Both the position numbers and the translations under genes were made by a program. The notes below the pieces were generated by a model. It was not told the DNA's origin and made no database searches. It was given only the letters and a program-made list of their open reading frames with translations. A DNA stretch of 64,000 nucleotides, from contig NZ_CP019427.1 in NCBI RefSeq assembly GCF_009834545.1, positions 4,408,001 through 4,472,000 on the forward strand. The letters are read 5' to 3'. Source of the DNA: Pseudomonas sp. S04. GTDB lineage: Bacteria; Pseudomonadota; Gammaproteobacteria; Pseudomonadales; Pseudomonadaceae. Shown piece after piece: positions 9,456 through 19,038 of this stretch (the first letter of the stretch is position 1; each line of letters starts with the position of its first letter).

Positions 9456-10787
9456 TTGGATTGGCAGACCCTGCTTAACCGTGAACGCCTCGGCAAACCT
9501 GTGCACAGTCCGGAAGAACTTGGCCGCAGCCCTTTCCACAAAGATCATGACCGGGTGATTTTCTCCGGGGCCTTCCGTCGCCTGGGCCGCAAGACCCAGG
9601 TCCACCCGGTTCACAGCAACGATCACATCCACACGCGCCTGACCCATTCGCTGGAAGTCAGCTGCGTGGGGCGTTCGCTGGGCATGCGCGTCGGTGAAAC
9701 CATTCGCAGTGCCCTACCCGACTGGTGCGAGCCCAGTGACTTGGGGATGGTGGTGCAATCGGCCTGTCTGGCTCATGACATTGGCAATCCACCCTTTGGC
9801 CACTCCGGCGAAGACGCCATTCGCTACTGGTTCCAGCAAGCCGCGAACAAAGGCTGGCTGGATGCAATGAGTGAAGTGGAACGTAACGACTTCCTCAACT
9901 TCGAGGGCAATGCGCAAGGCTTCCGAGTGCTGACTCAACTGGAGTATCACCAGTTCGATGGCGGCACCCGACTGACCTACGCCACCCTTGGCACCTACCT
10001 CAAGTACCCCTGGACCGCACGACACGCCGACTCACTGGGCTACAAGAAACACAAGTTCGGCTGCTATCAGAGCGAACTGCCCCTGCTCGAACAGATCGCC
10101 CAGAAGCTCGGCCTGCCGCAACTGGAGGAACAACGCTGGGCCCGCCATCCCCTGGTCTACCTGATGGAGGCTGCGGATGACATCTGCTACGCCTTGATCG
10201 ACCTGGAGGACGGCCTGGAAATGGAGCTGCTGGAATATGCCGAGGTCGAATCGCTGTTGCTCGGACTGGTGGGCGATGACCTGCCGGAAACCTACCGCCA
10301 GCTTGGCCCCTCTGACTCACGCCGGCGCAAGCTGGCGATTTTGCGCGGCAAGGCCATTGAACACCTGACCAACGCCGCGGCGCGGGCCTTCGTCGAGCAA
10401 CAGGACGCCCTGCTGGCGGGCACGCTGCAAGGTGACCTGGTAGAGCACATGCATGGCCCGGCCAAACGTTGCGTATTGAATGCCAAGGACATGGCCCGCA
10501 AGAAAATCTTCCAGGATAAACGCAAGACCCTGCATGAAATCGGCGCCTACACCACGCTGGAAATACTCTTGAACGGCTTCTGTGGCGCGGCGCTGGAGCA
10601 ACACGGCGGCGGTACGGCCTCATTCAAGAACCGTCGCATTCTCGATCTGCTAGGTAATAACGCACCCGATCCACACGGTCCGCTACATGCCTCGTTTCTA
10701 CGCATGATCGACTTTATAGCCGGCATGACCGACAGCTATGCCAGCGAAATGGCCATGGAGATGACCGGACGCTCCAGCCGACCGTGA
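9456..10787 (+). CDS. dgt: dGTPase / deoxynucleotide triphosphohydrolase
   Basis: The 443-aa enzyme splits dGTP (or other dNTPs) into deoxynucleoside and triphosphate, trimming the nucleotide pool. The HD-domain ligands are visible: THSLEVS near residue 64, then the HD pair in [19 protein letters not shown] near residue 107, and a later Asp in [32 protein letters not shown] near the N-terminus is the family's usual opening. The start is a TTG at 9456, preceded by GGAGAG; no in-frame ATG lies before the conserved part. The length fits the Pseudomonas type. Confidence 0.94.
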
Positions 10788-10830: not shown

Positions 10831-11048
10831 TTACAGTCCTCGGCGCCTCCCAGGAATCATCCTACAGTTAGCGTCGAATTGAATGACGACGAGAGTATCG
10901 GTACACATACAACTTCGCTTCTATGCTGAACACTATGATCAAAAATCAATACAGCGGTAGATATCCAGCAACAGAAAAAAGATAATCCATCTCCTATTAA
11001 AGCTAACGCCGACACTCCCAAGGCCAATCTCTCTTCCAGGAAAGCCAA

Positions 11049-11447
11049 ATGTTAACTTACAACTTACGCATCCTGCTGGTTGAAGACCACCCCTTTCAAC
11101 TCAGGGCAACACTTTGCTTGCTTAACAGTTACGGCTTCACCCAAGTCACTACCGCCGACACTGCCGACAATGCACTACAAAAGATGAATCTGGCACATCA
11201 ACCTTTTGAACTGCTACTCTGCGACCAATGCCTTCCAGATCTTCCCGGCCTGGAACTGATTGGCATTGCGAGCCTGCAGGGACTAATACAACAAGCCATT
11301 CTCCTGAGCAGCCTTGACAGCCTCGAATTAAACACTTTGAAAAAAGCCGCTGATGAACATCGACTACCCTTACTCGGTTATCTGGCAAAGCCGCTGAAAA
11401 AAACCGAGCTTATAAACCTGCTGATGTCAGAGCAGCGTAATCGCTGA
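11049..11447 (+). CDS. Stand-alone receiver (REC) protein, RocR-like
   Basis: The 132-aa product is one CheY-like domain and nothing else. The acidic pair is VEDHPFQ at residues 11-13, the phospho-acceptor Asp59 sits in LLLCDQCLPDLPG, Ser87/88 in AILLSSLD, and Lys114 in YLAKPLKK. All active-site residues are present. LEDEPFQ, AICD, VILSS and LGKPF occur at matching places in the receiver of P. aeruginosa RocR/SadR as I remember it, but the EAL phosphodiesterase domain is missing here. The gene and its flanks look more AT-rich than neighbours. It precedes the RocA/RocS-like genes and may compete for or buffer phosphate from the kinase's HPt. Confidence 0.85.
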   Translation: MLTYNLRILLVEDHPFQLRATLCLLNSYGFTQVTTADTADNALQKMNLAHQPFELLLCDQCLPDLPGLELIGIASLQGLIQQAILLSSLDSLELNTLKKAADEHRLPLLGYLAKPLKKTELINLLMSEQRNR

Positions 11448-11696
11448 GCATCGTCACTACTGCCCCCCAGAGTCTCCCACCCAATTACAAGCGTCCTTCC
11501 CGTTACAACTTACAAGTTTAAACATAGGCTTTCGACAGCAGACTTCCTCCTGATATTCCTTCCTACTGCGTAATCCCTAGCCTTCTCTTATGTAGGACTC
11601 GTCCTATATTGCACTCCTGCCCCCCTCGGTTCATACGTCGCTACTGCTATCTGAGCTAAGGTGCTCGCTTTATTTGCGCACGTATGGGACTTGATT
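11448..11696. other. AT-rich gap before the BvgA/RocA-like regulator
   Basis: The 249 bases contain a palindrome at 11593-11606 and no gene I can support. A terminator for the receiver gene is not obvious, so read-through into the regulator is possible. Confidence 0.35.
11593..11606. promoter_or_regulatory. Palindrome upstream of the RocA-like gene
   Basis: TAGGAC-TC-GTCCTA is a perfect inverted repeat about 90 bases before the regulator start, followed at once by TATTGCA. LuxR-type regulators often bind such sites, so autoregulation is possible. The binding factor is not known. Confidence 0.4.
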
Positions 11697-12323
11697 ATGA
11701 ACACCGTTTTTATTGTCGACGATCACCCCGTCATTCGTCTCGCCGTTCGTATGTTGCTGGAACATGAAGGTTACAAAGTCGTCGGGGAATCGGATAACGG
11801 CGTCGATGCCATGCAAATGGTTCGCGAATGCATGCCTGATCTGATTATTCTCGATATCAGCATCCCAAAACTGGATGGCCTGGAAGTTCTTTCGCGCTTC
11901 AACAGCATGAATACGCCCCTGAAAACCCTGGTACTGACCGCACAGAGCCCGGAACTTTTCGCCATTCGCTGCATGCAATCCGGTGCATGCGGGTACGTCT
12001 GCAAACAGGAAGACCTGAGTGAGTTGGTAAGCGCCATCAACGCCGTTTTTTCCGGCTATCACTACTTCCCCAGCCAGGCATTGAGCCCCTCGCGCAGCAA
12101 TGATGAACTGAACGCCGAACTCGACTTGTTCCGTTCCGTCAATGACCGCGAACTGATGGTCCTGCAATTGTTTGCCCAAGGTCGCAGCAACAAGGAAATT
12201 GCCAAAGGGATGTTTCTCAGCAACAAGACTGTCAGCACCTACAAAAAAAGGCTCATGCAAAAGCTCAAGGCACAATCTCTGGTGGAACTCATCGAAATGG
12301 CAAAACGCAACGCTTTAGTGTGA
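11697..12323 (+). CDS. BvgA/RocA-like NarL-family response regulator
   Basis: The 208-aa product has a receiver (FIVDDHPVIR, phospho-acceptor Asp53 in ILDISIPKLDG, Lys in YVCKQEDL near residue 104) and a C-terminal LuxR-type helix-turn-helix near residues 145-205 (RELMVLQLFAQGRSNKEIAKG). It is the DNA-binding partner of the hybrid kinase that overlaps it. ATG 11697 (MNTVFIVDDH) is the family-type start; the longer frame to 11661 adds 12 unlikely residues. BvgA, EvgA and RocA1/SadA control adhesion or virulence genes elsewhere; the targets here are not visible. Confidence 0.9.
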   Translation: MNTVFIVDDHPVIRLAVRMLLEHEGYKVVGESDNGVDAMQMVRECMPDLIILDISIPKLDGLEVLSRFNSMNTPLKTLVLTAQSPELFAIRCMQSGACGYVCKQEDLSELVSAINAVFSGYHYFPSQALSPSRSNDELNAELDLFRSVNDRELMVLQLFAQGRSNKEIAKGMFLSNKTVSTYKKRLMQKLKAQSLVELIEMAKRNALV

Positions 12324-12331
12324 GAGACAGG

Positions 12332-15300
12332 ATGCCCAGTTCTTTAAAGGACTATTTGTTGTATTTAAGTGTCGGACTTTGCCTGAGTGCCTCTGCCTGC
12401 ATGGCAGACCCAGAAATCGGTAATTACTCGCTGCTCAGTCGCTCGACGACCAAACCCATGGACGTTGAGTTGGATCTATCACAGCGCCAGTGGGTACAAG
12501 ACCGACCCGGACTGGTCCTGGGGACTTCGGCACCCGACTATCCACCATTCGACCTGACGATCCGGGGCCAGGACTATGAAGGATTCACCGCAGATTACGC
12601 GGGTATCATCGGCAGCACCCTGGGCCTGCCTATCCAGATCCGGCGCTACCCTTCCCGAGAAGCCGCCATCCAGGCACTGGAAAACGGCGATGTAGACCTG
12701 CTGGGCACGGCCAACGGCTATGAAGCCAGGAAATCGAACATCGCGCTGTCGATCCCCTACGCCATAGACCAACCGGTCCTGGTCACCCGGGAGACCGAAA
12801 CCCGCTCGCTGACCGAGGGCCTGGCCGGCATGCGCTTGAGCATGGTCTACCACTACCTGCCTCTGGAAGAGGTAACGGCCCTGTACCCCAACGCCATCAT
12901 TACACCCTACCCGTCCTTTCAGAATGCGATCAATGCCGTGGCCTTCGATCAGGCTGACGTATTTCTTGGCGATACAATTTCCACTCACTTCACGATCAAC
13001 AAGGGCTATCTGAAAAACGTCAGGATGGCCAACTTCGGTAAACACGAGGCCTATGGTTTCAGCTTTGCCGTCAAGCAGGACAACCAGGAGTTGTTGAACC
13101 TCATCAACACGGTCCTGGCAAGGGTGCCGGCCCGTGAGCGAGAAGACATCGCCAAACGCTGGAGCGCCGGCAGTGACATCCTGCTGACTGACCGCAAACT
13201 GCAGTTGAGCAATCGTGAAGAACGCTGGCTGGCGCAACATCCAGTGGTGCGAGTGGCCGTCAACGATGGTTTTGCGCCGCTGACCTTCTTTGATTCCGAT
13301 GGCAACCTGCGGGGGATCACCGCCGACCTGCTGGAGCTCATCAGGTTGCGGACGGGATTGCGTTTCGAGCTTCATCGCAGCCCAAGCGAACGCGCCATGC
13401 TCAACCTGATTGAGGAGGACCGCGTCGACCTGATTGCCGCCATTGCCCCCAGTGTCGAGCGCGAGACACGCCTGAGCTTCACCCGCCCCTACCTGGAAAG
13501 CTCCTATGTACTGCTGAGCAGCAAGAGCCCCGGCAGCCCGACGGATCTCGAGCAACTGCGTGGCAAGAGCCTGGCAATCACCGAAAACAATCCATTGCGT
13601 GATTACCTGCAACGCGAACACCCGGGTATCCACCTGGTGCAAACGCAGGACGCCTTCAGCGCCGTGGAGTTGCTTGCCAAGGGCCAGGTCCAGGGCGCGG
13701 TTGAATCCCTGATCATCGCCAACTACTTCATCGCCGCGCAGTTGTTCGAGGACCAACTACAGATCAGCGCAACGGTCGGCACACAGCAAGCCGCAGTTTC
13801 CCTGGCCACCGCCCGTGGTGCGATTGAGTTGAGTACTATCCTCGACAAGGCCCTGCTGAGTATCGCCCCGGACGAACTGGGGATCATCAACAGCCGCTGG
13901 CGTGGCTACATGGGTCCGGCCAGTGGCACCTGGCGCAACTACCAGCGCCAGCTATACCAACTGGTGGTCGGCAGCAGCCTGGTACTGCTCATGCTCCTGG
14001 CCTGGAACGCCCACATGCGTCGCCAGATCAAACAGCGGCAAAAGGTTGAGCGCGCCCTCAATGACCAGCTCGAGTTCATGCACACGCTGGTCAATGGCAC
14101 GCCCCACCCCATCTACGTGCGCGACCGCCAGGGGGTGCTGAAAAGTTGCAATGACAGCTATCTGGAAACCTTCTGCGCCAAACGCGAGGAGGTGATCGGC
14201 AAAACCGTCATGCAAGGCTCCATGAGCAACGCCTTTGAAGCCGGGGAATACCAGGCGGACTATCAGCGAGTGATGGCCGAGGGCGTGCCGATGCTGCTCG
14301 ATCGCACCCTGCACATCGGCAGCACAAAACTGACGATCTATCACTGGATCCTGCCCTATCGGGATTCCACGGGAGAGGTCCAGGGAATTATCGGCGGCTG
14401 GATCGACATCAGCGACAGACGCCAGCTGTTTGATGATCTCAGGTCCGCCAAAGAGCGCGCCGATGAAGCAAACCGCGCCAAGAGCACCTTCCTGGCCACC
14501 ATGAGCCATGAAATCCGTACGCCGATGAACGCCGTGATCGGTATGCTCGAACTGACCCTCGAACGCGATGAACATAGCCTGCAGGATCGTCCCGCCATTG
14601 AAGTGGCCTATAACTCGGCCAAGGACCTGCTGGAGCTCATCGGTGACATTCTCGACATTGCCCGAATCGAATCCGGCCGCCTGAGCCTGGCGCCCGAACG
14701 GGTCAATCTCGGCGTCACCCTGGAAGCGGTGATACGGGTCTTTGACGGACTCGCGCGGCAGAAGAAACTGACGCTGAGCCTCGACTTTCCCGACGCGGCG
14801 GCGCAGCCGGATGTGCTGACCGACCCTCTGCGCCTGAAACAGATTCTGTCCAACCTGATCAGCAATGCCATCAAGTTTACTGAGCAGGGAAAAGTCAGCA
14901 TCAAGGTCCGGTTGTTGACGGTCGAGGGCGCCGACCAGCAGCAGATGGTCATGCACATCATCGATACGGGGGTCGGCATCAGTGCGGACGACCAGCGCCT
15001 GTTGTTCGAACCCTTCGCCCAGGCGCAGAACACCAGCCAAATGGCCAGGAGCGGAGCCGGCCTGGGTCTGGTGATCTGCCGCAGCCTGTGCGAAATGATG
15101 GGCGGCGACCTGCAACTGAGCAGCCAACCGGGAGTCGGCACCGAGATCCGGGTTGACCTGCCCATGACGCCGCTGCCAGACGCCACTGTGCAGGAGCCAC
15201 TGCCGGCGCTGGTCGCACCTGGCCAGACCTGCTTAAACGTGCTGGTGGTCGACGATCATCCGGCAAATCGGCTGCTGATGAGCCAGCAACTGGGGTTCCT

Positions 15301-15958
15301 GGGGCATCGTTGGGTCACGGCGAACGACGGTGCGCAAGGATTGGCGGCCTGGCAAGAGGGTCATTTCGACCTGGTGATCGCCGACTGCAACATGCCGGTG
15401 ATGAATGGCTACGAACTGGCGCGGGCCATCCGCAGGATCGAACACGATGAACAACGCCCACCGTGTACGGTGCTCGGCTTTACTGCCAACGCCCAGCCAG
15501 AGGAAAAACCTCGATGTCGCCAGGCGGGAATGAACGATTGCCTGTTCAAGCCCATCAGCCTGGCGACACTCAGCCAATGCCTGGAGACCCTGCGTCCTCT
15601 CACCGAGGAACCGGCCTTCAGCCTGCAGAGCCTGCAAGCACTGACCGGTGGCGACCCCGTACTGGTGCAGCGCCTGCTCACCGAGTTGCTCAACAGCAAC
15701 CGCCTCGATCGCCAAGAACTGCTCGACTTGTCGCCGGCCAGCGGGCGCGAGGGATTCATCGATATCGCCCACAAAATCAAAGGCGCGGCCCGCATCGTCC
15801 AGGCCACCAGACTGATGGACAGCTGTGAGGCACTTGAGCGGATGTGCCACGAAGCGTTCACCGAGGCCAGGCTGGCGACCTGCACCGAGGCGATACAGCA
15901 GGCCATGCTGGAACTGGAGCAGGCACTGCAACGAGAGATTGCTCAATCTTCGACCTGA
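12332..15958 (+). CDS. BvgS/RocS-like hybrid sensor kinase
   Basis: The 1208-aa inner-membrane kinase has an N-terminal export signal and two periplasmic solute-binding (Venus-flytrap) domains (about 45-285 and 290-515). A membrane helix lies near 540-560 (LVVGSSLVLLMLLAWN), then PAS (580-700). The kinase core follows with the H-box FLATMSHEIRTPMNAV near 724, N-box LISNAIKFTEQG and G-boxes DTGVGIS and GAGLGL. Next come a receiver with Asp near 1018 (IADCNMPVMNG) and an HPt with His near 1147 (AHKIKGAARI). This is the full BvgS/EvgS/RocS layout for a four-step phosphorelay. The ATG at 12332 follows the regulator stop by eight bases; a GTG at 12320 would overlap it. The ligand is unknown. Confidence 0.92.
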   Translation: MPSSLKDYLLYLSVGLCLSASACMADPEIGNYSLLSRSTTKPMDVELDLSQRQWVQDRPGLVLGTSAPDYPPFDLTIRGQDYEGFTADYAGIIGSTLGLPIQIRRYPSREAAIQALENGDVDLLGTANGYEARKSNIALSIPYAIDQPVLVTRETETRSLTEGLAGMRLSMVYHYLPLEEVTALYPNAIITPYPSFQNAINAVAFDQADVFLGDTISTHFTINKGYLKNVRMANFGKHEAYGFSFAVKQDNQELLNLINTVLARVPAREREDIAKRWSAGSDILLTDRKLQLSNREERWLAQHPVVRVAVNDGFAPLTFFDSDGNLRGITADLLELIRLRTGLRFELHRSPSERAMLNLIEEDRVDLIAAIAPSVERETRLSFTRPYLESSYVLLSSKSPGSPTDLEQLRGKSLAITENNPLRDYLQREHPGIHLVQTQDAFSAVELLAKGQVQGAVESLIIANYFIAAQLFEDQLQISATVGTQQAAVSLATARGAIELSTILDKALLSIAPDELGIINSRWRGYMGPASGTWRNYQRQLYQLVVGSSLVLLMLLAWNAHMRRQIKQRQKVERALNDQLEFMHTLVNGTPHPIYVRDRQGVLKSCNDSYLETFCAKREEVIGKTVMQGSMSNAFEAGEYQADYQRVMAEGVPMLLDRTLHIGSTKLTIYHWILPYRDSTGEVQGIIGGWIDISDRRQLFDDLRSAKERADEANRAKSTFLATMSHEIRTPMNAVIGMLELTLERDEHSLQDRPAIEVAYNSAKDLLELIGDILDIARIESGRLSLAPERVNLGVTLEAVIRVFDGLARQKKLTLSLDFPDAAAQPDVLTDPLRLKQILSNLISNAIKFTEQGKVSIKVRLLTVEGADQQQMVMHIIDTGVGISADDQRLLFEPFAQAQNTSQMARSGAGLGLVICRSLCEMMGGDLQLSSQPGVGTEIRVDLPMTPLPDATVQEPLPALVAPGQTCLNVLVVDDHPANRLLMSQQLGFLGHRWVTANDGAQGLAAWQEGHFDLVIADCNMPVMNGYELARAIRRIEHDEQRPPCTVLGFTANAQPEEKPRCRQAGMNDCLFKPISLATLSQCLETLRPLTEEPAFSLQSLQALTGGDPVLVQRLLTELLNSNRLDRQELLDLSPASGREGFIDIAHKIKGAARIVQATRLMDSCEALERMCHEAFTEARLATCTEAIQQAMLELEQALQREIAQSST

Positions 15959-16089
15959 CATCTCCCGGGCCACAGTTTGAACCCTGCTGGCCCTGGCGCT
16001 CGGACAGCCTCAAGGATTCACAGCAGACCGTTGTGCCATTAACTATGCTTGTTGGCTGAGCCGTGCGTATCGACTATGGAGAGCCTGCA

Positions 16090-19038
16090 ATGCCCAGCCC
16101 ACCGCGCCCGGACAAACGCCGATTGCCGCTGCACGTGCATATCAGCGTGATGTTCACCCTGTTGCTGCTGTTCACGGGCGTTGTGCTGGGTATTTTCAAT
16201 TATCGACAAACCACCGAGATCATCCTCTCCAGCAGTGAGAAGCTGTTCGAACGCATAGACCAGGACGTGCGCAGGGACCTGCAAACCACCTACCAGCCCA
16301 TTCGACGATTGCTCAGCCTGTTGGCAGAAAGCGACGCGATACAGGGAACGGATCTGGCGCACCGGCTGCCCCTGCTCAAACCCTTCAGCCAATCCCTCAG
16401 GGACAATAACGAGCTGGCATCGCTGTACGTCGGTTATGCCGATGGCGATTTTTTCATGGTCCGCCCATTACGCAGCGATGCCCTGAAAAAAACCCTGCAG
16501 GCGCCTGATGCAGCCGCCTTTCAGGTCTGGAGCATCGATCGTGACATCCTCACCGGGCAAACCCGCTCACAATCACTGTTCTATGACGCGACACTGAACC
16601 AGATCGGGCGCCTGGATAATCCGCAGGAGGCCTATGACCCTCGCACCCGGGCCTGGTTCGACCGGGCCAACAGCAGCGAAGAACAGATCACCACTGAACC
16701 CTACATCTTCTTTTCGACCCACAACATCGGCACGACGCTCGCCCGCCACAGCGGCCCCAATGCCGTGGTGGGCGCCGACCTGACCCTGGCCCAGCTGTCC
16801 GCCACCCTGGCCAAGCACCAGGTAACACCCGGCACCGAAGTCGTGCTGTTCGATGGCGACGGCAATGCCGTCGCCTACCCCGACAGTAGCAAGCTGATCA
16901 TCGATGATCAAAAGGCCCACCTGGCCAAGGTCAAGGACTTGAGCCCGGCCCTGGCAGCCCTGTTTATGCACCCGGCCAGTGGCAATCGCCTGGAGGTCGG
17001 CAACCGCCAATGGATCTTTGCTCGCAGCAGCATCCAGGAAGGTGGCCCGCGGGGACTGAACCTGGCAGTGATGGTTCCCGAAGAGGAGTTGCTGGTCGAT
17101 GCCTATCGAATGCGCTGGCAGGGCGCCCTACTGACCCTGGCCATCTTGTTACTGTGTGTGCCACTGGGCTGGCTGACCTCCCGTATCCTGGTCAAGCCAT
17201 TACGGGCACTGGTGCAGGAAGCCGACGCGATTCGCAGTTTTGATTTCAACTACCCGGTTGCACGCCGCTCGCCGGTGTTGGAAGTCGACCAACTCAGCGT
17301 CTCCATGGCGCGCATGAAAGCGACCCTGGCCAGCTTCTTTGAAATCACCGACAGCCTATCGGCGGAAACCCGCTTCGAGCCGCTGCTGCTTCGAGTCCTG
17401 GCGGAAACCGTGAAGATAGGCCAGGCCCAGGCGGGACTGATATACCTGCGGGAAAATGAAGGCAACCGCCTCCAGCCCCATGGCTTGTTCATCGAGGGTG
17501 AATCACGCGACCTTTCGGCATTCAACGTCAAGAGTCATGATCCTGACGACACGCAGGCCCCTGCCTGGCTGCACCCACTGGCGAGCCAGAACGCTCTGGT
17601 GACGACTCTGGGATTCGAGCAGGCAGGCGATCTGCAAAGTGTAATGCTGGCGCTGCAGTGCCCCAGCGTGCACCTGATCGGCATTCGCCTGCACAATCGC
17701 CATAACGAAACCGTCGGCGTGCTGATCCTGTTGCTGGCCGACAGCGGTGCGCAAGCGGACCTCGAAAAGCTGCGCCCTGACCGGATCGCCTTTATCCAGG
17801 CGGTCTCCGGCGCTGCAGCCGTGAGCATCGAAAGCCAGCGCCTGCAGCACAAGCAAAAACAGCTGCTGGACGCCTTCATTCAGTTGTTGGCAGGAGCGAT
17901 CGATGCCAAGAGCCCCTATACCGGCGGCCACTGCCAACGGGTACCCGCCCTGACCCTGATGCTCGCCCAGGCCGCCGCCGCCAGCCGGGCCCCGGAATTC
18001 GAACGCTACAACCCCACCGACGATGAATGGGAAGCGCTGCACATTGCCGCCTGGTTGCACGACTGTGGAAAAGTCACCACACCTGAATACGTGGTCGACA
18101 AAGCCACCAAGCTTGAGACCCTCACCGACCGCCTGCATGAAATCCGCACCCGCTTCGAAGTACTCAAGCGCGATGCCTGGATCGACTACTGGCAAGGGCT
18201 CGCCCAAGGTGGCGACGGGCAGACACTGGCTGTAACGCGCGACGCCAGCCTCGCCGCCCTCGACGACGACTTTGCCTTTGTCGCCCGCAGTAACCTGGGG
18301 GGCGAGGCCATGGTCGAAGGCGACCTGCAACGGCTGCACAACATTGCCCAACGCACCTGGACCCGCACGCTGGATGACCGGCTGGGGCTGTCCTGGGAGG
18401 AGAACCGCCGCCAGGCTCGCACCCCGACTCCCGTGCTGCCGGTCAGCGAGCCGCTGCTGGCGGATAAGCCCGAACACCTGTTCGAACGCAACAGTGCCGA
18501 GCTAATGCCCGCGGACAATCCCTGGGGCTTCAAACTCGACGTTCCGCCGCACAAATACAACCGTGGCGAGCTGTACAACCTGAGCATCACCCGCGGCACG
18601 CTGACCTGCGAGGAGCGCTACATCATCAACCATCACATGGTGCAGACGATCCTGATGCTCAGCCACCTGCCCTTCCCCGGGCACTTAAGCAACGTCATGG
18701 AAATTGCCGCCGGGCATCACGAAAAAATGGACGGCACCGGCTATCCGAGACGACTCACACGGGAACAGATGAGCCTGCCGGCGCGGATGATGGCGATTGC
18801 CGATATTTTCGAAGCGCTGACTGCCGCAGACCGCCCCTACAAGAAGGCCAAGACCCTCAGTGAGGCTCTCGGCATCATGGCGTTCATGTGCCGTGATGCC
18901 CATATCGACCCGCAGCTGTTTGCCCTGTTTATCGAGGAACAGATCTATCAGCAGTACGCCGACAGATACCTCGACCCGGTACAAATCGATGCCGTGGACC
19001 GACAAAGCCTGCTCGCCAAAGCAGGCCTGGTTAGCTGA
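16090..19038 (+). CDS. Membrane HD-GYP protein with sensor and GAF domains
   Basis: The 982-aa protein has two membrane helices (about 18-38 and 345-365) around a periplasmic Cache-like sensor of about 300 residues. HAMP (about 370-420), GAF (about 440-590) and an HD-GYP domain follow. HD-GYP enzymes degrade c-di-GMP. Ligands seen are GGHCQRV, the HD pair in WLHDCGKVTTPEYV at 657, NHHMVQ, and HHEKMDGTGYPRRL with GTGYP at 882. The HD and GYP motifs are about 224 residues apart, against roughly 60 in the classical family, so a long insertion splits the domain. ATG 16090 has ATGGAG upstream. It lies 131 bases after the BvgS-like kinase on the same strand. Confidence 0.88.
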   Translation: MPSPPRPDKRRLPLHVHISVMFTLLLLFTGVVLGIFNYRQTTEIILSSSEKLFERIDQDVRRDLQTTYQPIRRLLSLLAESDAIQGTDLAHRLPLLKPFSQSLRDNNELASLYVGYADGDFFMVRPLRSDALKKTLQAPDAAAFQVWSIDRDILTGQTRSQSLFYDATLNQIGRLDNPQEAYDPRTRAWFDRANSSEEQITTEPYIFFSTHNIGTTLARHSGPNAVVGADLTLAQLSATLAKHQVTPGTEVVLFDGDGNAVAYPDSSKLIIDDQKAHLAKVKDLSPALAALFMHPASGNRLEVGNRQWIFARSSIQEGGPRGLNLAVMVPEEELLVDAYRMRWQGALLTLAILLLCVPLGWLTSRILVKPLRALVQEADAIRSFDFNYPVARRSPVLEVDQLSVSMARMKATLASFFEITDSLSAETRFEPLLLRVLAETVKIGQAQAGLIYLRENEGNRLQPHGLFIEGESRDLSAFNVKSHDPDDTQAPAWLHPLASQNALVTTLGFEQAGDLQSVMLALQCPSVHLIGIRLHNRHNETVGVLILLLADSGAQADLEKLRPDRIAFIQAVSGAAAVSIESQRLQHKQKQLLDAFIQLLAGAIDAKSPYTGGHCQRVPALTLMLAQAAAASRAPEFERYNPTDDEWEALHIAAWLHDCGKVTTPEYVVDKATKLETLTDRLHEIRTRFEVLKRDAWIDYWQGLAQGGDGQTLAVTRDASLAALDDDFAFVARSNLGGEAMVEGDLQRLHNIAQRTWTRTLDDRLGLSWEENRRQARTPTPVLPVSEPLLADKPEHLFERNSAELMPADNPWGFKLDVPPHKYNRGELYNLSITRGTLTCEERYIINHHMVQTILMLSHLPFPGHLSNVMEIAAGHHEKMDGTGYPRRLTREQMSLPARMMAIADIFEALTAADRPYKKAKTLSEALGIMAFMCRDAHIDPQLFALFIEEQIYQQYADRYLDPVQIDAVDRQSLLAKAGLVS

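Follow-up and report, generated by a model that had tools for sequence, protein, structure and literature searches.

A conserved receiver-only RocR-type protein in a variant Roc system of Pseudomonas

What is the role of a RocR-type receiver that stands beside the genes of a Roc phosphorelay and lacks the EAL domain that cuts cyclic diguanylate (c-di-GMP)? The question is raised by a locus in the complete, 6.1-Mb genome of Pseudomonas sp. S04, within a stretch of 64,000 nucleotides of contig NZ_CP019427.1 (the window, hereafter), where the gene for a lone receiver is followed by genes for a RocA-type response regulator and a RocS-type unorthodox kinase. We conclude that the locus represents a variant Roc system in which a receiver-only RocR is conserved. 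This EAL-less RocR may dock on the Hpt domain of the kinase and compete there with RocA, which would make it a brake; we assign this reading a probability of about 0.5. The three genes are as follows.

11049..11447, + strand: lone RocR-type receiver of 132 amino acids, with E12, D13, D59, S87 and K114 present (Pfam, fold model and conservation)
11697..12323, + strand: RocA/EvgA/BvgA-type response regulator of the NarL type (Response_reg and GerE domains)
12332..15958 (alternative start GTG at 12320), + strand: RocS/EvgS/BvgS-type unorthodox kinase (domain search and motifs)

The lone receiver and its company

A preliminary description of the window had placed these genes, together with one for an HD-GYP protein, at 11049, 11697, 12332 and 16063, where all four indeed sit. 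The Roc/Bvg layout that it had recognised in kinase and regulator is also borne out by domains and motifs, an H1-D1-H2 kinase adjoining a NarL-type RocA. The kinase contains SBP_bac_3 in two stretches, PAS, HisKA, HATPase_c, Response_reg and Hpt, and carries the phosphorelay motifs HEIRTP, ADCNMP and HKIKGA.

The protein at 11049 had been described as RocR-like but only a receiver, and both parts hold. A Pfam search gave one Response_reg domain (43.9 bits) and no other domain at E <= 0.01. The AlphaFold2 model shows the standard receiver fold (predicted local distance difference test, pLDDT, 91.3), and its first match among solved structures is RocR (3SY8; E 1.7e-7, template-modelling (TM) score 0.80 by query), which ranks fifth when solved structures are searched by sequence profile. 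The best NCBIfam match is PvrR, a receiver-EAL (REC-EAL) protein, hit over the receiver part only and far below the model cut-off; the PvrR model likewise matches, over the receiver, all 15 of 15 members of the lone-receiver alignment. RocR and PvrR are therefore of the same receiver type by predicted fold and sequence, but they carry EAL, and in a 101-receiver tree built on 141 columns the family of the window's receiver is parted from RocR and the PvrR-like receivers by a 99/99 branch. BvgR of Bordetella is also the third component of a Bvg-type system, but it has an EAL domain and no receiver, the reverse of the domain content seen here. To look for a frameshifted EAL remnant after 11447, the EAL half of RocR from the same genome served as tblastn query against 56 receiver neighbourhoods; none was found (best E 1.2), and the genuine EAL of a control segment was hit at 4e-42.

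The genus sample consisted of 149 genomes, that of the window included. The lone receiver was found in 58 of them, all inside the 121 that have an orthologue of this RocA. Lone receivers were counted at E 1.1e-18 or better, including a frameshifted copy (G107) and a cut one (G022) and leaving out an 81-amino-acid remnant (G005) and a 38%-identical protein (L090); RocA orthologues were taken from matches down to 2.1e-88, as paralogues start at 8.3e-86. The orthologues of the lone receiver in the 57 other genomes are 44-74% identical over the matched stretch, and its closest relative among the named ones kept is from Pseudomonas kielensis (93%). The receiver, RocA and kinase genes follow each other in this order on one strand in 56 of the 58 stretches (the window and L033-L089), and a dGTPase-like gene directly precedes the three in 54; the four exceptions show an insert (L033), a contig end (L068) and no dGTPase-like gene in place (L086 and L089). 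A scan of named loci, which kept 80 of 231 relatives, all titled Pseudomonas (records of the own genome may be excluded), gave a similar picture: the order is kept in 77, with the kinase followed by the HD-GYP gene in 53, directly by an fRMsr-like gene in 21 and by neither within the stretch in three. The three loci without RocA are L165 and L225, which have an insert in rocA, and L182. L033, L165 and L225 each have, downstream of the receiver gene, an insert that interrupts rocA in its 5' part and contains an open reading frame (ORF) of about 710 amino acids, followed in L033 and L225 by ORFs of about 715 and 183-197 amino acids; by eye, those in L033 and L165 break rocA near the same codon and that in L225 further in. 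In G100, the genome of L033, RocA, kinase and HD-GYP protein are encoded 81 kb from the lone receiver.

The residues E12, D13, D59, S87 and K114 are invariant in 56 of 56 full-length lone receivers. The median ratio of nonsynonymous to synonymous substitution rates (dN/dS) of the lone receiver is 0.13 (92 pairs), compared with 0.137 for the kinase, 0.141 for the HD-GYP protein and 0.03 for RocA. By these measures, the lone receiver is intact and under purifying selection.

Competition with RocA and other possible roles

RocR attaches through its receiver to the Hpt of RocS1 as well as to that of RocS2, and it acts as an antagonist of the Roc response (PMC3083521). Therefore, a protein with the same receiver minus the enzyme should still bind Hpt, and because the Hpt-docking part of RocR is kept and the EAL absent, the lone receiver most likely competes with RocA for Hpt phosphate. 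The locus would then be a phosphorelay of the roc2 type to which a receiver-only RocR has been added. Phosphate would travel along H1, D1 and Hpt of the kinase to RocA, a probable regulator of its own promoter via a palindrome at about -104; the lone receiver, itself presumably made under a weaker RocA-type site, would compete with RocA for this phosphate, either as titrator or as reversible reservoir, and the outcome would be a feedback brake or a threshold on RocA. Since the receiver gene lies next to rocA and has its own RocA-type site, feedback competition with RocA is the simplest reading, and we infer that the lone receiver is phosphorylated by the Hpt and that inhibition results. A role as sink or titrator is plausible. 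One kinase with two regulators, one of them a sink, yields sigmoidal thresholds (PMC4214558). CheY1-type sinks of Sinorhizobium have a comparable arrangement of one kinase and two receivers, one of which acts as sink (PMC4214558), but they belong to a CheA system, whereas the window kinase is unorthodox and has an Hpt.

Two sites upstream are relevant to the feedback.

11593..11606, no strand: TAGGACTCGTCCTA palindrome, 104 bp before rocA, putative RocA site
10851..10864, no strand: CAGGAATCATCCTA, one mismatch from TAGGA-N4-TCCTA, 198 bp before the start of the lone receiver

RocA1, RocA2 and RocA3 are reported to share similar DNA motifs (PMC12051241), and we infer that the palindromes are RocA-binding sites. 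Of 75 loci, 64 have TAGGA-N4-TCCTA with at most one mismatch before rocA, most often at -101 to -108, and elsewhere it was found in 0/71 upstream regions of the kinase, 1/76 of the dGTPase-like gene and 3/74 of the DUF883 gene. Before the receiver it occurs in 7/57 loci, compared with 0.7% of shuffled regions. With a site matrix built from the 75 rocA sites and a threshold at the 95th percentile of shuffles, 22/57 receiver regions score above threshold, as do 6/71 for the kinase, 1/35 for the HD-GYP gene, 6/74 for the dGTPase-like gene and 5/72 for the DUF883 gene. Alignment of 19 receiver upstream regions gave one footprint. GAAT-N3-CCTAC, part of the same pattern, is present in 37/58 receiver regions and 0/2,900 shuffles, and the looser GAH-N4-CCTA in 56/58 versus 4.6% of shuffles, both patterns having been picked from related sequences after viewing the alignment. 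All P values and shuffles in this study ignore kinship among the genomes. The own genome contains the perfect palindrome five times: 104 bp before this rocA, 75 bp before the gene for a REC-EAL RocR, 104 bp before that for a pseudo-receiver, and at two other places. About three would be expected there by chance (estimated from base composition, with the GC of the window, 0.61), so that their placement is telling and their number is not. The two others stand before an HNH-type-looking and a LuxR-type-looking gene, named by the look of the sequence. The perfect TAGGA-N4-TCCTA before the LuxR-looking gene (238 amino acids), at L149:1501-1514 (G000:C1:5329977), lies about 68 bp upstream of it and is possibly a RocA target or a chance occurrence.

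Several observations weigh against such a competitor. RocA is kept without the lone receiver in 63 of the 121 genomes, so the lone receiver is dispensable, and a vertically inherited neighbour could co-occur with RocA without interacting with it. At the upstream sites, the palindrome with up to one mismatch precedes the receiver in only 7/57 loci, and 35/57 receiver regions fail to exceed the shuffle threshold of the matrix. The surface of the receiver gives a mixed answer. Among the helices, helix 1, where Hpt usually docks on receivers, shows the strongest conservation (0.67 bits; helix 4 has 2.18 and helix 5 has 2.53, these two forming the usual output face), and this agrees with Hpt docking; the contrast sets the lone receiver apart from 7 RocR receivers, but not from 11 PvrR-like REC-EAL receivers, in which it is stronger. 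Moreover, position D+2 is Cys in 52/56 and T+2 is Leu in 56/56 lone receivers. The residues at D+2 and T+2 serve as a rule for the speed of self-hydrolysis of receivers, and those found here are unlike a fast self-hydrolysing receiver, which speaks against a simple sink by hydrolysis. The rule thus weakens a fast-hydrolysis sink as a candidate.

The same protein, phosphorylated by the kinase, could instead be a connector that binds another protein, for example a c-di-GMP enzyme, and would then form a positive output branch and no brake. Single-domain regulators with connector roles have been reported, namely MrrA (PMC5964349) and an exopolysaccharide regulator (PMC12802240). Across the 56 receivers, conservation is high in beta-5 and its surroundings (LPLLGYLxKP). 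On the other hand, helices 4 and 5, the face on which output is usual, are the least conserved parts, and of the genes counted in the 149 genomes (RocA and HD-GYP) only RocA tracks the receiver, the kinase having been viewed in fetched neighbourhoods only; a connector is possible, with a probability of roughly one in five. Somewhat more doubtful is an inhibitor that takes no phosphate: while unphosphorylated, the receiver would bind to the kinase and prevent its autophosphorylation or the relay. In the VieSAB system of Vibrio cholerae, VieB inhibits in this manner, and it resembles the lone receiver as a receiver without DNA-binding or EAL output that is encoded with VieS-VieA, whose unorthodox kinase has the same layout with two periplasmic ligand domains (PMC4352251). 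VieB has in addition a TPR region and a further C-terminal half (PMC4352251), whereas the lone receiver, with its 132 amino acids, is a receiver only. It is very improbable that the lone receiver is just a decaying remnant of a REC-EAL RocR. Receiver-only and REC-EAL proteins do intermix in a sister group of the tree, and G107, G022 and G005 carry broken or cut copies of the window family, but the dN/dS of 0.13, the active-site residues in 56/56 full-length receivers and the lack of an EAL remnant in the 56 neighbourhoods contradict it; simple decay was rejected because of purifying selection and the kept active-site residues.

The HD-GYP neighbour and the roc2 site

Two further genes of the locus need to be introduced here.

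16063..19038 (GTG start; ATG at 16090), + strand: dCache-HAMP-HD-GYP protein, chromosomal neighbour whose membership of the Roc unit is not supported
9456..10787, + strand: dGTPase-like gene, left landmark of the site (HD domain by Pfam; name by parallel with PA3043)

The preliminary description had proposed that the c-di-GMP output moved from an EAL domain to the adjacent HD-GYP protein, controlled in trans through the locus, a reading to which we give little credence. The HD-GYP gene lies on the strand of the kinase gene, about 104 bp behind it in the window, and adjoins it in 53/80 named loci, so that co-transcription is possible. The catalytic motifs HDCGK and HHEKMDGTGYP are present, and Pfam detected HD_5 with 175.5 bits, dCache_1 (27.5, cut-off 45) and HAMP (24.4, cut-off 25) both being below their cut-offs. 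However, the adjacency is independent of the lone receiver: HD-GYP stands next to RocA-kinase in 24 of the 58 genomes that have the receiver and in 31 of the 63 that lack it (odds ratio 0.73, Fisher p 0.47). In this count, HD-GYP copies have at least 60% identity, with broken copies included and paralogues at 41-56% dropped, and adjacency means at most 9.5 kb from RocA on one strand; G100 was counted though its lone receiver lies far off, and without it HD-GYP and receiver share a stretch in 23 loci. A further 22 genomes have the HD-GYP family but no RocA orthologue, and in the three of them that were examined (L110-L112) it lies near a dGTPase-like gene with neither RocA nor kinase in the stretch. 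Moreover, the HD-GYP protein has its own sensor region and no receiver domain, no palindrome with up to one mismatch was found in 37 regions upstream of its gene, and the genome retains a REC-EAL RocR at a second Roc locus (L092), so the EAL output was not lost from the genome. The proposed shift is thus not supported, and of the four-gene synteny considered with it the part with receiver, RocA and kinase stands (77/80 and 56/58), while that with HD-GYP does not (24/58 versus 31/63). HD-GYP as an obligate Roc partner was rejected because of the distribution and of its presence without RocA and kinase in L110-L112. As far as distribution tells, its gene is an independent neighbour, probably an old one, at most co-transcribed in some lineages. 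The HD-GYP domain itself has roughly 160 extra residues between HDCGK and its second half, and the best solved match of the protein by sequence is 3'3'-cGAMP-specific phosphodiesterase 3 (5z7c).

The left flank of the locus consists of a DUF883 gene and the dGTPase-like gene, and the right flank of fRMsr-like and ATPase-like genes, named by the look of their sequences, and another hybrid kinase. In P. aeruginosa, PA3040 is a DUF883 protein and PA3043 a dGTPase (PMC11302039), and PA3044-PA3045 are rocS2-rocA2 (PMC3083521). By neighbours and locus numbers, compared with these published gene lists, the site matches the roc2 (rocA2-rocS2) position. A legend in PMC11302039 puts the tags PA3044/PA3045 on a DUF883 entry directly before a 'response regulator' entry; this looks like a shifted label, and the 'response regulator' near the dGTPase gene could be the lone receiver. 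Roc2 of P. aeruginosa has, in the published descriptions, the same surroundings, an unorthodox kinase and a NarL-type regulator, but only rocS2 and rocA2 are named in the available text, and no lone receiver (PMC11302039, PMC3083521). RocS2 is reported to be without the periplasmic SBP domains of RocS1 (PMC12051241), whereas the window kinase has two. In the literature searched (open-licence papers, in part), no description of a lone receiver at roc2 was found, which is no proof of novelty. A RocR-like receiver without EAL, PA34_RS05235, is known from two P. aeruginosa strains, but that protein arose when a mobile element entered rocR (PMC12051241), while the window family is conserved and at another locus.

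Receiver-only proteins in the Roc network

The second Roc locus of the own genome encodes RocA, RocS, the REC-EAL RocR, a 144-amino-acid pseudo-receiver, and one more regulator and kinase, which are RocA-like and RocS-like, respectively. The pseudo-receiver (L092:10359-10793) follows RocR, has Asn for the phospho-acceptor Asp, and a perfect TAGGAATAGTCCTA stands 104 bp upstream of it. Its relatives come from three other genomes and are encoded after RocR in L142 and L243 and after a RocS-type kinase in L141, with Asn in 4/4. In the PvrR-like part of the receiver tree, receiver-only and REC-EAL proteins are intermixed, which suggests repeated EAL loss there. For the window family, the direction of EAL loss cannot be read from the tree because of few columns, long branches that meet, and pseudo-receivers that join one lone receiver by a doubtful branch. 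Other arrangements were also seen. In eight loci (L125-L127, L129, L133 and L135-L137), a BvgS-like sensor half (SBP-PAS, 467-484 amino acids) ends before the kinase domain, and a lone receiver comes next; of the eight receivers, the seven included in the tree set all have Pro for an active-site acid. A similar kinase-less sensor is encoded in the own genome (L122:1375-2757), and at L138:7262-8451, after a BvgS-type kinase, a RocR-like protein is split, with its receiver in one frame and its EAL in another.

As a tentative extension, receiver-only RocRs might be a recurring class that damps BvgS-type kinases: an active, RocA-controlled competitor at roc2, the Asn pseudo-receiver at the second RocA-RocS pair (with its palindrome spaced as before rocA), and further lines by repeated EAL loss, which jointly might set thresholds in an interlinked Roc network. 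We regard this wider scheme as conceivable rather than probable.

Finally, the RocR phosphodiesterase is the known brake of the Roc network in P. aeruginosa. A RocR receiver without the enzyme, found only together with RocA (58/58), would offer a way to ask if RocR brakes by the cutting of c-di-GMP alone or by competition for the kinase as well.

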